A DNA stretch of 45,986 nucleotides from an uncultured Clostridia bacterium (GTDB taxonomy: Bacteria > Bacillota > Clostridia > Oscillospirales > Ruminococcaceae), in assembly GCA_947627465.1 (NCBI GenBank), contig CANQWD010000023.1, positions 1 to 45,986 on the forward strand. The letters run 5' to 3'. Under the pieces are notes generated by a model. That model was not told where the DNA came from. It saw nothing but the letters and a program-made list of their open reading frames with translations, and ran no database searches. The position numbers were made by a program, and so were the translations under genes. Below, in pieces: positions 10,146 through 44,048 of the stretch. Every line of letters starts with the position of its first letter. Within the stretch, counting starts at the first letter, position 1.

Positions 10146-10194
10146 TTGTAATCATTTGTAACCGTTTTGTAATGATATTGTAACCGTTTTGTGG
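10146..10194 (+). promoter_or_regulatory. Phased TTGTAA operator, candidate response-regulator site
   Basis: TTGTAA occurs at 10146, 10156, 10167 and 10178, with a degenerate TTGTGG at 10189. Three consecutive steps are exactly 11 bp, the spacing of direct-repeat sites for OmpR/PhoB-family regulators. Within it a 15-bp sequence is repeated exactly at 10156 and 10178. The last intact box is 40 bp upstream of the -10 at 10218. The same arrangement occurs at 42521-42548. Confidence 0.65.
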
Positions 10195-10214
10195 TATTTT
10201 TTTCAGCAATATTT

Positions 10215-10223
10215 TGCTATAAT
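10215..10223 (+). promoter_or_regulatory. Extended -10 promoter of the 10251 gene
   Basis: TGCTATAAT is a perfect -10 hexamer (10218-10223) with a TG extension. The -35 position (about 10195-10200) reads TATTTT, a poor match, which fits activation by a protein bound to the phased boxes just upstream. Confidence 0.65.
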
Positions 10224-10250: not shown

Positions 10251-11111
10251 ATGAAAAAAGTATTTGCAATCGTTTTAGCGCTTTTCACGTTTTCGATAAT
10301 AGGCGTGACGGCGTTCGCGGATATGGGTCCTAAGCCGTCGAGCACGTTTTACGTAAAAGGCGTTGAGGACGGCAGAGAATATTACATAATGCTTGTAAAT
10401 CCCGACGACGACCCGTATATTAGTGATGGATACGTCAGGCAAAAAGACGTCGCGTGGGAGCGGATAAGAGAATTTTGTTTAACTAACGGTTATTCCCCTT
10501 ATCTTTGCCCCATAGCAAGCGGATCCCACGAAAAGATGACGGGCAGCGACACCGCGGAATGGGGTTACAACCCGCCCGATACGTTTTGCGTTCTGCTGTA
10601 TTTTCCCGATGACGAGCGTTTTCTTGTGAGCAATCAATATAAGAAATACGCGTTCAACTCGTATTTTGACGTGAACGTAAACGGCAATTCGGTGACCGTT
10701 GAAATAGCGGGCGGAGCGAAGCGTGTTGCCGCAGAGATTGGCGGTCTGCTATTGAGAATAGCGATAACGGTGCTTATCGAGGTCGGCATAGCTAAGGGAT
10801 ACGGTTTTTTCGGCAAAAAGTCGTTTAGACTTATTATAATAATGAACGTCATAACGCAGCTTTTGCTGAATGCGCTTATTTATAAGTGGAGCTTTGACCT
10901 CGGCGGTCTTGGAGAATTACTCGCGCTTTTAATCGGCGAGGCGGTGGTCTTCGCGGTAGAGGCGATAGTGTACGGCAACGCACTGCCCGCTTTCACCGGA
11001 AACGAGATAAAGAGCGGCAGAGCGGTAGGCTATGCGTTCGTGGCAAATTCAGCGTCGCTCGTCGGCGGGGGAGTGCTGCTTTTCGTGAGCGATATGCTTA
11101 GCAAAATATGA
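10251..11111 (+). CDS. Exported/membrane protein with 4-TM C-terminal module
   Basis: A 286-residue envelope protein. The start is set at ATG 10251 behind AGGAGGT rather than any upstream in-frame codon. Residues 1-23 form a signal peptide ending AFA before D24. Residues about 24-160 would be outside the cell. Four hydrophobic segments follow near 164-187, 194-215, 219-241 and 257-283. This C-terminal module (NVITQLLLNALI, EAIVYGNALP, GRAVGYAFVANSASLVGGG) is homologous to most of the protein at 11898, so the pair are paralogs; the outer domain is unique to this one. It has its own promoter with phased TTGTAA boxes. Function unknown; regulation suggests an envelope or nutrient response. Confidence 0.85.
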   Translation: MKKVFAIVLALFTFSIIGVTAFADMGPKPSSTFYVKGVEDGREYYIMLVNPDDDPYISDGYVRQKDVAWERIREFCLTNGYSPYLCPIASGSHEKMTGSDTAEWGYNPPDTFCVLLYFPDDERFLVSNQYKKYAFNSYFDVNVNGNSVTVEIAGGAKRVAAEIGGLLLRIAITVLIEVGIAKGYGFFGKKSFRLIIIMNVITQLLLNALIYKWSFDLGGLGELLALLIGEAVVFAVEAIVYGNALPAFTGNEIKSGRAVGYAFVANSASLVGGGVLLFVSDMLSKI

Positions 11112-11897: not shown

Positions 11898-12401
11898 ATG
11901 ACAAAAGCTTTTGCATTTGTCTTTGCTTTATTTATCGTATTCATTTCGACAAGCGTTCCCGTGTTCGCGGCCTCACAACATGAAACTGTCGAGGGATATG
12001 CTTCGGAAATCGTCGGCTTTTTTGTGAAAGTTATAATTGCCGTGGGGTTAGAGCTTGCGGTGGCTGTGGCTTTCGGGTATCGCCGGAAAAAAGAGGTAAA
12101 GCTTATTCTTATCGTAAATATCGCCACACAGCTTTTTCTGAATATAGCGGTGAACATTGCTGACTTCAGAGCGGGAGCTTTGTTTGGAATAATTACATAT
12201 ATCGGTTTGGAATTTTTAATATTTATATTCGAGGCGGCGATCTATGCCGTCAATCTTCCCGGATATTCGGGAAGTACCCACCGGGGGAAAGCCGTTTTAT
12301 ACGCGTTTTGTGCAAATTTAACGTCATTTATTGCGGGAGGACTTCTGGCGGCTGTTCTTGGCGGTATCTCGGATTTTTTTACAATACTGTCGATGCAATG
12401 A
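11898..12401 (+). CDS. Membrane protein, short paralog of the 10251 product
   Basis: A 167-residue membrane protein. A signal peptide (residues 1-24, ending VFA before A) is followed almost directly by four hydrophobic segments. NIATQLFLNIAV, EAAIYAVNLPGYSG and GKAVLYAFCANLTSFIAGG align with the C-terminal module of the protein encoded at 10251, which shows common ancestry; the large outer domain of that protein is missing here. GGAGG precedes the ATG by 7 bp. It has its own strong promoter with a palindrome at the start site, so it is controlled separately from its paralog. Function unknown. Confidence 0.85.
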   Translation: MTKAFAFVFALFIVFISTSVPVFAASQHETVEGYASEIVGFFVKVIIAVGLELAVAVAFGYRRKKEVKLILIVNIATQLFLNIAVNIADFRAGALFGIITYIGLEFLIFIFEAAIYAVNLPGYSGSTHRGKAVLYAFCANLTSFIAGGLLAAVLGGISDFFTILSMQ

Positions 12402-42520: not shown

Positions 42521-42548
42521 TCGTAATGAATTTGTAATAAAATCGTAA
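42521..42548 (+). promoter_or_regulatory. Phased TNGTAA operator upstream of the VanY-type gene
   Basis: TCGTAA (42521), TTGTAA (42532) and TCGTAA (42543) are 11 bp apart and end 11 bp before the -35. Their starts lie 62, 51 and 40 bp upstream of the -10, the same distances as the boxes at 10156, 10167 and 10178 for the 10251 promoter. Confidence 0.65.
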
Positions 42549-42559
42549 GATGTTTTTTA

Positions 42560-42588
42560 TTGACTTTTCACCAAAATTATGCTAAAAT
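42560..42588 (+). promoter_or_regulatory. Promoter of the VanY-type gene
   Basis: TTGACT (42560-42565), 17-bp spacer, TAAAAT (42583-42588) with an extended TG (42580-42581). The leader to the ATG at 42834 is about 240 nt and includes the inverted-repeat element. Confidence 0.8.
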
Positions 42589-42604: not shown

Positions 42605-42752
42605 AGAGCCTGTTTAGTATCTCAACGTGCGGAGATCCGCCCGATGACGGCAATTTTTCGCAGGAATACTTTATGTATTTCAAGAAAAATTGACTAAATT
42701 GGGCGGAAAATATGCAAGCGAGATGCGTGCGGGGAGATACTGAACAGGCTCT
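42605..42752. repeat. MITE-like inverted-repeat element
   Basis: A 148-bp element whose 19-bp ends (42605-42623 and 42734-42752) are complementary with one mismatch; outer sequence AGAGCCTGTT/AACAGGCTCT. Inside, CCGCCC pairs with GGGCGG, CAATTTTTC with GAAAAATTG, and GGAATAC with GTATTTC at the tip, so the whole unit folds into one long hairpin. TAAGA occurs at both outer edges (42603, 42752) and overlaps the arms, so a target duplication is not certain. No transposase is present. It lies within the leader of the VanY-type gene. Confidence 0.6.
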
Positions 42753-42833: not shown

Positions 42834-44048
42834 ATGAAAAGAAAAATCGCGGCGATATCTATTATTGCGGCAATGCTCTTGAGCGGATGCCAAGAAGTTC
42901 AAGATACCTCGGCTGACGTTTCCGAAACGTCAAATTCCGAGAGCACAACAAATTCAATAAATTCGGCTGACTTGTCAACAGCTGCGCAGTCAACAAAAAC
43001 GCCGGAGCAGTCGGAAAGCGGCGGTGCGCCGACTGTAATAGCTCCGAATTTTAAAAGTTCCGCGCCCGAAAAAGAAAGCGTACCCGAGGTTGAGGACAGC
43101 GTTCCACAAGTAGAGGAAAGTGTTCCCGATAATTCCGATGTAAGTTTTGAAAATTCCAAACCGTCAAGTTTGCCTGTAAATAACACCGTTGTAGAAAACG
43201 GTGAAACGCGGACTGTCGCGAGCGGTGAAACGCTTGAAATAGCGGAAGGTGAGAGTTTGGAGGTCGAAGGCGAACTGATCGTCGAAAGCGGCGCTGTTTT
43301 GAATGTTTTAAACGGCGGTGAGCTTTTCGTTGAGTCTAACGTGAAGCTTGAAGGCGACATTGTGCTGTCCGAAGGCGGCAAGCTTACGATGACACATGAT
43401 ACTGCGAAAATTGAGGGCGCGGGCAGTGTTGTTGTAAAGAAAGATTTTGAACAGGTCAATTGTGAGCGCGGCTTTATAAACGCTCATATTGCTCCGCCCG
43501 AGCGCGTTGTCGGCGAGGACGGCGCAACGTATGTCGGCGGTATAGTTATCGCGAACAAGGCGATAACGCTTCCGCCCGAATACGGCAGTGATCTTTCGCT
43601 TGACGAGGTTTATCCGGAGGTCAGCGCCGCGCTTGATGAAATGAATGCGGCTTCCGAGCATCAGTATGTGAATAAGTCCGGTTATCGTTCGTATTACGAT
43701 CAGCAGGCGATTTTTCAGAACTACTGCGATATGTACGGCTATGACGAAGCGGATACGTTTTCTTCGCAGGCGGGACACAGTGAACACCAAACCGGGCTTA
43801 CGATGGATTTGGACGCGTTTGAGGAAAGCTACGGCGATACCCCCGAGGGCATTTGGCTTGCCAATAACTGCTGGAAATACGGTTTTATAATCCGTTATCC
43901 CAAGGGTAAAGAGGATATCACGGGCTATACATACGAGCCGTGGCACGTGCGTTATCTCGGTAAGAGCACAGCGAAGCTCGTTTTTTACAGCGGTCTTACG
44001 CTGGAGGAATTTCTGGACATAGAGGGCGGCACGACCGTTATTGATTGA
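42834..44048 (+). CDS. VanY-type D,D-carboxypeptidase lipoprotein
   Basis: A 404-residue lipoprotein. Signal peptide with lipobox LLSGC (acylated C19), a Ser/Glu/Pro-rich linker to about residue 110, a repetitive beta-like part (GETLEIAEGESLEVEGE, ESGAVLNVLNGGELFVES) to about 200, and a C-terminal VanY/M15 zinc peptidase domain with SGYRSYYDQQAIF, GHSEHQTGLTMD (H318, D325) and EPWHVRY (H371). It removes the terminal D-Ala of peptidoglycan stem peptides outside the cell. The gene is alone between a regulated promoter and a terminator. Its role beside Ddl and MurC in wall turnover follows from the family. Confidence 0.92.
   Translation: MKRKIAAISIIAAMLLSGCQEVQDTSADVSETSNSESTTNSINSADLSTAAQSTKTPEQSESGGAPTVIAPNFKSSAPEKESVPEVEDSVPQVEESVPDNSDVSFENSKPSSLPVNNTVVENGETRTVASGETLEIAEGESLEVEGELIVESGAVLNVLNGGELFVESNVKLEGDIVLSEGGKLTMTHDTAKIEGAGSVVVKKDFEQVNCERGFINAHIAPPERVVGEDGATYVGGIVIANKAITLPPEYGSDLSLDEVYPEVSAALDEMNAASEHQYVNKSGYRSYYDQQAIFQNYCDMYGYDEADTFSSQAGHSEHQTGLTMDLDAFEESYGDTPEGIWLANNCWKYGFIIRYPKGKEDITGYTYEPWHVRYLGKSTAKLVFYSGLTLEEFLDIEGGTTVID

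Follow-up and report, generated by a model that had tools for sequence, protein, structure and literature searches.

A phased TTGTAACC box array upstream of an exported membrane protein gene, a putative member of a lineage-wide cell-envelope regulon in uncultured Clostridia

The window, i.e. the whole stretch of DNA that was analysed (45,986 nucleotides; contig CANQWD010000023.1 of assembly GCA_947627465.1, from an uncultured Clostridia bacterium of the Ruminococcaceae), contains two promoters preceded by phased hexamers (Table 1), the first upstream of a gene encoding a 286-aa protein and the second upstream of a gene encoding a VanY-type carboxypeptidase. At E 0.001, neither Pfam nor NCBIfam matched the 286-aa protein. 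Its hydrophobic stretches fit a signal peptide and about four membrane helices following an outer domain, in line with the first-pass annotation of an exported protein with an outer domain and four membrane helices. Of the 43 genus genomes, 12 encode relatives of this protein, among them the genome that contains the window (hereafter the own genome). A second protein encoded in the window (11898-12401) shares 36% identity in its four-helix part with the end of the 286-aa protein, suggesting that the membrane domain also exists without the outer domain.

At the first promoter, direct reading demonstrated that the distances from the starts of the TTGTAA boxes at 10156, 10167 and 10178 to the -10 at 10218 are exactly 62, 51 and 40 bp, as had been annotated, with the copy at 10146 standing off phase (steps of 10, 11, 11 and 11 bp from 10146 to 10189). 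These head-to-tail repeats with an 11-bp step, one helical turn, bear out the earlier description as phased direct hexamers of the OmpR/PhoB type. The array reads TGTAAC-N5-TGTAAT-N5-TGTAAC and is a two-mismatch member of the TTGTAACC pair pattern described below, box 2 being without the CC (TTGTAATG); TTGTAATC, which occupies the position of the outlying box, is found again in the genus genome G038. The -35 is poor, its best candidate at a spacing of 16-18 carrying 5 mismatches, and together with the extended -10 this supports an activator-like position of the 10156-10194 array.

At the second promoter, the hexamers at 42521, 42532 and 42543 precede the -10 at 42583 by 62, 51 and 40 bp, so that the same hexamer class recurs at the same distances, in agreement with the first-pass annotation. 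A 148-bp element (42605-42752) with 19-bp terminal inverted repeats (95% complementary) is located between the VanY promoter and its gene. As this repeat pair recurs in another species (locus L298), the element has the appearance of a MITE, a small mobile element. It is apparently absent from G038, where the VanY promoter lies about 160 bp nearer the gene.

Table 1. Features of the two promoters and their genes, in window coordinates.
Feature	Position	Strand	Remarks
TTGTAA, outlying box	10146..10151	+	One base off the 11-bp phase; read in the sequence
TTGTAACC, box 1	10156..10163	+	Hexamer TTGTAA at 10156
TTGTAATG, box 2	10167..10174	+	Hexamer TTGTAA at 10167; counterpart in G038 is TTGTAACG
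TTGTAACC, box 3	10178..10185	+	Hexamer TTGTAA at 10178; box end to -10, 32 bp
TTGTGG, degenerate box	10189..10194	+	TTTTGTGG likewise closes the arrays at own contigs C9 and C13
Extended -10, TGC-TATAAT	10215..10223	+	TATAAT at 10218
Target gene, 286-aa protein	10251..11111	+	Signal-peptide-like start, outer domain of ~140 residues, ~four hydrophobic helices
TCGTAA, first hexamer	42521..42526	+	Read in the sequence
TTGTAA, second hexamer	42532..42537	+	TTTAAT in G038
TCGTAAGA, VanR-like box	42543..42550	+	Starts with TCGTAA; common to the VanY promoters of G038, G002, G001 and G036
Core promoter TTGACT-17-TAAAAT, extended -10 TGC	42560..42588	+	-10 TAAAAT at 42583
Gene for VanY-type D-Ala-D-Ala carboxypeptidase	42834..44048	+	PF02557, 113.8 bits (cut-off 25); lipoprotein-like N-terminus (by eye)

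The exact TTGTAA triple occurs at four places in the own genome (2.52 Mb, 52 contigs), namely on C9, C13, C23 (the 10156 array) and C29, and these sites reveal a longer unit, TTGTAACC, repeated every 11 bp. Two such units, TTGTAACCNNTTTGTAACC, gave 26 matches in this genome at three mismatches or fewer, compared to 4 with reversed-pattern controls. Within the genus, the two-unit pair was present at one mismatch or fewer in 34 of 43 genomes (reversed control, 0/43), and within a spread of 198 genomes from the family it was present in 64 (control, 3/198). A genome_contigs scan with three exact units, which may omit the own genome and its near kin, returned 38 stretches; 24 are titled Oscillospiraceae, Clostridia, Ruminiclostridium or Bacillota, and the remaining 14 are scattered over other groups, probably by chance. 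Because TTGTAACCNNTTTGTAACC served to select the genus sites, their consensus is partly built in; for the same reason, CC conservation within the box (91 and 85 of 92 sites) was not retained as an argument. The regulon idea of the first-pass annotation can be extended in that the motif of the first promoter recurs in genus and family, and these comparisons support the view that this promoter belongs to a larger, lineage-wide set with cell-envelope proteins among the identified targets.

Judged from its orthologues, the link of the boxes to the 286-aa gene is real but not fixed, because boxes are kept in four of the ten readable orthologous promoters and absent from six. The retention of motif and spacing in related species, which had been singled out as a check, is therefore mixed. 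In G038, G021 and G022 the boxes end 32 bp before the -10 (the G021 and G022 orthologues are 33% and 31% identical to the 286-aa protein), and in G027 they stand in the opposite orientation; no boxes were detected at two mismatches or fewer in the promoters of G002, G030, G001, G018, G017 and G012. In G042, boxes are found about 300 bp upstream of the orthologue, with another reading frame in between.

Distances from boxes to the -10 were compared over 104 distinct site clusters from the own, genus and family loci, from which clusters near locus ends had been dropped; the counts per spacing class are not independent, many of the promoters being orthologues of one another. In forward orientation (TTGTAACC reading toward the gene), the -10 starts 31 or 32 bp past the last full box in 22 of the 104 clusters. 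An extended -10 is present in 20 of these 22, and the -35 has at least two mismatches in 20 of them as well. The window promoter at 10218 has a spacing of exactly 32 bp, the commonest in the forward class. Other forward spacings are 21 bp (4 clusters) and 79-80 bp (11 clusters), the latter mostly preceding a class-V aminotransferase that resembles cysteine desulfurase. In reverse orientation, the -10 stands at 67 bp in 29 clusters, 27 of them with an exact TTGACA and none with an extended -10. For a set of 84 clusters, 0.33 would be expected per offset, compared to 13 observed at 32 and 27 observed at 67. The fixed helical turn and the poor -35 of the forward class fit an activator that contacts RNA polymerase, and the reverse class, with its complete core promoter, may be repressed or modulated.

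Domain searches identified a DUF348-G5-3D protein and a G5-M23 peptidase among the reverse-orientation targets, which also include a protein-kinase-domain protein (L265, Pfam) and solute-binding-like lipoproteins (by eye). The forward-orientation targets comprise many uncharacterised lipoprotein-like proteins (by eye), a CAP-domain protein (L291), an acyltransferase-like membrane protein (by eye), the aminotransferase gene and a membrane-protein family sharing the phrase NAPEGTAYID or similar. The most constant target is the DUF348-G5-3D gene, with a site at one mismatch or fewer in 31 of 39 readable promoters (28/30 plus 3/9); the eight promoters without it all belong to genomes without any match at this level, an agreement that partly follows from the way in which the sites are defined. 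Outside the genus, a gene of another genus that is 3D-like by eye (L384) likewise has its -10 at 67 bp. Nine of the 43 genus genomes have no TTGTAACC pair at one mismatch or fewer. The pair is absent at this level from G011, G012, G013, G031, G034, G035, G040 and G041, and the candidate regulators discussed below persist in those of them that were examined. The 3D promoters of G035 and G040 show, by eye, an apparent half-decayed site, TTACAA-N5-TTTCAA, and motif-lacking genomes with half-decayed boxes in some 3D promoters offer a natural experiment on regulon loss.

Several further targets deserve description. Boxes at own C9:56913-56962 (L001) stand at the gene for the cysteine-desulfurase-like class-V aminotransferase, next to which, by eye, the own genome has a ThiI-like gene downstream. 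The aminotransferase target recurs at L074, L077, L082, L085, L090, L091, L286, L294, L298 and L301, mostly 79-80 bp from the -10, an unexpected tie of tRNA thiolation to an envelope motif. Arrays at own C13:30449 (L310), C11:27742 (L311) and C4:94143 (L312) precede genes of the NAPEGTAYID/NAPEGTLYLD membrane-protein family, of which three scanned members gave no Pfam match; at C4:94143, an acetyltransferase gene comes first and two members of the family follow. In three species (L265, L276 and L282), the start of a protein-kinase-domain gene, Pfam-confirmed for L265 alone, is about 80-135 bp away from reverse boxes. The PrkC kinase is described as regulating WalRK in B. subtilis (PMC4478028).

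An OmpR-type regulator gene near a target, as suggested in the first-pass annotation, was not found on the window contig. The own genome encodes twelve OmpR-type proteins, of which L032 (own C1:129258-129950), with its neighbouring kinase gene, is the most likely candidate. L032 was found in 42 of 43 genus genomes, and comparison of its DNA-binding domain with solved PDB structures ranked RegX3 first and VicR second, then OmpR, with WalR fifth. The kinase beside L032 has WalK as its best NCBIfam model (NF033092, 248.7 versus a cut-off of 725) and contains a HAMP domain and no PAS domain in Pfam. Among the 10 of 12 own OmpR-type proteins scanned with NF040534 (YycF/WalR), the cut-off of 340 was not reached, the best scores being 215.3 for L033 and 203.6 for L032. 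No WalH, WalI or WalJ was recognised by eye in the reading frames of 17 kb around L032, three proteins of which were searched by family. A C. difficile paper states that WalRK is present in all Firmicutes (PMC9210968), so a divergent WalR would be expected here.

Autoregulation of the own OmpR-type genes was considered and rejected, as no TGTAAC-N5-TGTAAC site at two mismatches or fewer was found within 400 bp upstream of the 12 genes, nor near L032; the 13-17-kb neighbourhoods of L032, L033, L034 and L036 hold one two-mismatch TGTAAC pair, inside a reading frame beside L033. The presence or absence of regulators was likewise uninformative for the choice. In G013, G031, G034, G035, G037, G040 and G041 (six genomes without the motif plus G037, which has one site; 50 of 53 listed regulators read), orthologues of L032 and L034 are present in all seven with nearly unchanged DNA-binding ends, and L033 and L036 are present in six each (L033 not seen in G034, L036 not seen in G041).

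A serious rival to L032 is L034, a PhoB-like pair that would read TTGTAACC within a phosphate-type response. The DNA-binding end is almost unchanged in its orthologues from 13 other genomes sampled, and the NCBIfam models that fit L034 best, although below cut-off, are PhoB types. The PhoB consensus, too, is a direct repeat, with an 11-bp distance in the printed letters (PMC4168254). However, the L034 kinase scores best with WalK and then with PhoR, both below cut-off, and the subset of targets put through domain searches includes no phosphate-uptake gene; we regard the assignment to L034 as unlikely. Also rather improbable is the binding of TTGTAACC by another OmpR-type regulator, such as L036, L038 or L039, or by a non-OmpR protein. 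Relatives of these three occur in several genus genomes, and no co-occurrence signal favours L032, the genus-wide count having been made for L032 and not for these regulators, but head-to-tail boxes repeated every 11 bp are characteristic of OmpR/PhoB regulators, and L032 presents the strongest combined case through its near-universal occurrence in the genus, its adjoining kinase and its VicR/WalR-like DNA-binding domain.

The second promoter appears to follow a different regulator. The first-pass annotation had joined the two window genes in a two-member regulon, which is doubtful given that TCGTAAGA, and not TTGTAACC, is what the VanY promoters nearest to the window one have in common, and that the own vanR-like promoter has an exact VanR box. 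In the nearest orthologues (G038, G002 and G001), TTNAA is followed by TCGTAAGA and then by TTGACA or TTGACT; G036 also carries TCGTAAGA, and G017 has CGCAAGA there. The published VanR box is (T/C)CGTANGAAA(T/A)T (PMC4405338). L033 scores 367.2 bits with the VanR-family model vanR_ACDEGLN, above the cut-off of 350, its own vanR-like promoter holds TCGTAAGAAAAT, a 12/12 match to the VanR 12-mer, and the vanR promoter of G031 holds TTGTAATAAAATCGTAAGA, the same 19 letters as window positions 42532-42550. Furthermore, G032 has the order regulator-kinase-VanY with a one-mismatch VanR box before VanY, and in G042 a VanY homologue follows the L033 orthologue and its kinase.

Mismatch counts to the VanR 12-mer have to be read against random 500-bp pieces, 151 of 3000 of which reach 0-1 mismatches. 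The best match in 500 bp has 0 mismatches in G026, 1 in G002, G003 and G028, 2 in the own genome and G036, and 3 in G001 and G017, these being 8 of 27 VanY promoters picked by prior sight of the element. Seven vanR-like promoters gave 0 mismatches in the own genome, 1 in five, of which two have a different sequence context, and 2 in one. As the window VanY site is two mismatches off, a level often reached by random DNA, and the eight scored promoters were picked, the case for VanR rests on the orthologues. A wider regulon for the VanY-type box was not supported: TTNAAKNNNWTCGTAAGA gave 6 exact matches in 43 genomes versus 3 controls and none in the own genome, and three of the six precede the VanY genes that supplied the pattern, so that this box looks gene-specific, or the pattern is too strict.

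The alternative that one regulator serves both window promoters, the VanY site being a degenerate copy of the TTGTAACC array, draws on the identical geometry and hexamer class, the extended -10 in both promoters, the exported appearance of both products and the modest match of the window site to the VanR 12-mer. However, no GTAACC box pair was found in 27 VanY-family promoters of the genus, the own one included (27/30 loci), and TCGTAAGA, shared by four other genomes, has G where the TTGTAACC regulon box has C; with the exact VanR 12-mer in the own vanR-like promoter and TTGTAATAAAATCGTAAGA in G031, this alternative is improbable. These sequence comparisons make it more likely that the 42521 promoter is a target of VanR type, with nothing but the geometry in common with the 10218 promoter, and the pairing of the gene of unknown function with VanY is probably wrong. 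This suggests that two different OmpR-type regulators use one promoter geometry in one genome, in which case spacing alone should not join genes into a regulon. The likeness to the VanR-controlled promoters of vancomycin-resistance clusters extends to the exact box before the vanR-like gene, the score of L033 and the VanY-like gene after the regulator-kinase pair in G042 and G032; unlike in those clusters, the own VanY and vanR-like genes lie on separate contigs and the window VanY site is two mismatches off. No claim of resistance is attached to this likeness.

Chance was weighed by simulation and shuffling. At three mismatches or fewer, the triple TTGTAA-N5-TTGTAA-N5-TTGTAA gave 4 overlapping matches in the window, confined to the two promoters, compared to a mean of 0.05 and a maximum of 1 in 100 window shuffles, and three TNGTAA hexamers on an 11-bp step occur twice, each with a -10 at +62, and in none of 200 second-order Markov windows. 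Shuffling and simulation thus mark such a triple as rare. Across the own genome, the level at which the first-pass annotation had named random occurrence as a way for its reading to fail, the TTGTAA triple at three mismatches or fewer gave 35 matches versus 13 with the reversed control, a background that makes the two-mismatch site at 42521 weak if its spacing is ignored. That the boxes are AT-rich chance or a composition artefact is scarcely credible: many of the three-mismatch genome-wide hits are chance matches, but the reversed control is absent from every genus genome at one mismatch or fewer, the distance to the -10 is fixed and the site is retained in most orthologous 3D promoters, observations that already speak against chance.

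On the present evidence, 10146-10194 is probably an activating operator array of a WalR-type OmpR/PhoB regulator, likely L032 with its kinase, and 42521 likely answers to L033. From the observed boxes, their spacing, their recurrence in genus and family and the identified part of the target list, we infer that regulator protomers would bind TTGTAACC half-sites head to tail on one helix face, one turn apart. In the forward class, the regulator would replace the -35 contact and activate from boxes ending 31-32 bp before the -10, and the exported 286-aa membrane protein would join a lineage-wide envelope regulon together with the G5/3D protein, the G5/M23 peptidase and lipoprotein-like proteins. 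The 42521 promoter, with the same geometry and a different box, would most likely be under the VanR-like L033 (own C2). More tentatively, the array may be part of a family-wide master envelope regulon of Oscillospiraceae-type Clostridia, in which a divergent WalR-type regulator acts on multi-box TTGTAACC arrays, the mode of control is set by box orientation together with one of a small number of fixed distances (forward, 32 or 21 bp; reverse, 67 bp; at the cysteine-desulfurase-like gene, 79-80 bp), and many uncharacterised exported proteins are drawn in, including the 286-aa protein, and perhaps tRNA-thiolation genes. With such a grammar, an envelope-control circuit could be read at the level of single letters in bacteria for which metagenome assemblies are the main source of knowledge, and many unknown exported proteins would be tied to that circuit. 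Among the papers listed by a limited literature search, which were partly unrelated, none describes a TTGTAACC regulon; the array is a well-conserved regulatory element whose kind is known, and for this lineage the same limited search showed no description.

Three known systems invite comparison. CenR of Rhodobacter is an essential envelope regulator whose sites lie upstream of the -35 at activated promoters; of the sites that overlap repressed promoters, two are oriented opposite to the direction of transcription and one along it (PMC9275681). The envelope role and the activated promoters with sites upstream of the -35 would be shared with the present case, whereas the CenR motif is TGA-N8-TGA and the system is alphaproteobacterial. 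The PhoB/PhoP pho box is, by its printed consensus, likewise a direct repeat with an 11-bp step (PMC4168254), but its letters are of the CTGTCAT type, and no phosphate gene is present among the scanned TTGTAACC targets. For the WalR/YycF (VicR) regulon of Bacillota, part of the likeness lies in the wall-related targets, i.e. the G5+3D and G5+M23 proteins, the 286-aa protein having no known domain. YocH carries a 3D domain. The B. subtilis WalR regulon is reported to include activated (yocH) and repressed (iseA) members (PMC7299342), and the window array fits the direct repeat given as the WalR/VicR consensus, TGTWAH-N5-TGTWAH (PMC4168254, PMC9210968). Unlike that regulon, the half-site here is extended to TTGTAACC, arrays reach up to about six boxes, spacings are fixed and tied to orientation, the scores of candidate L032 and its kinase fall far short of the respective WalR and WalK cut-offs, and no WalH, WalI or WalJ was recognised by eye nearby. 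Taken together, the regulator of the TTGTAACC boxes appears to work like WalR, not to be filed as WalR.
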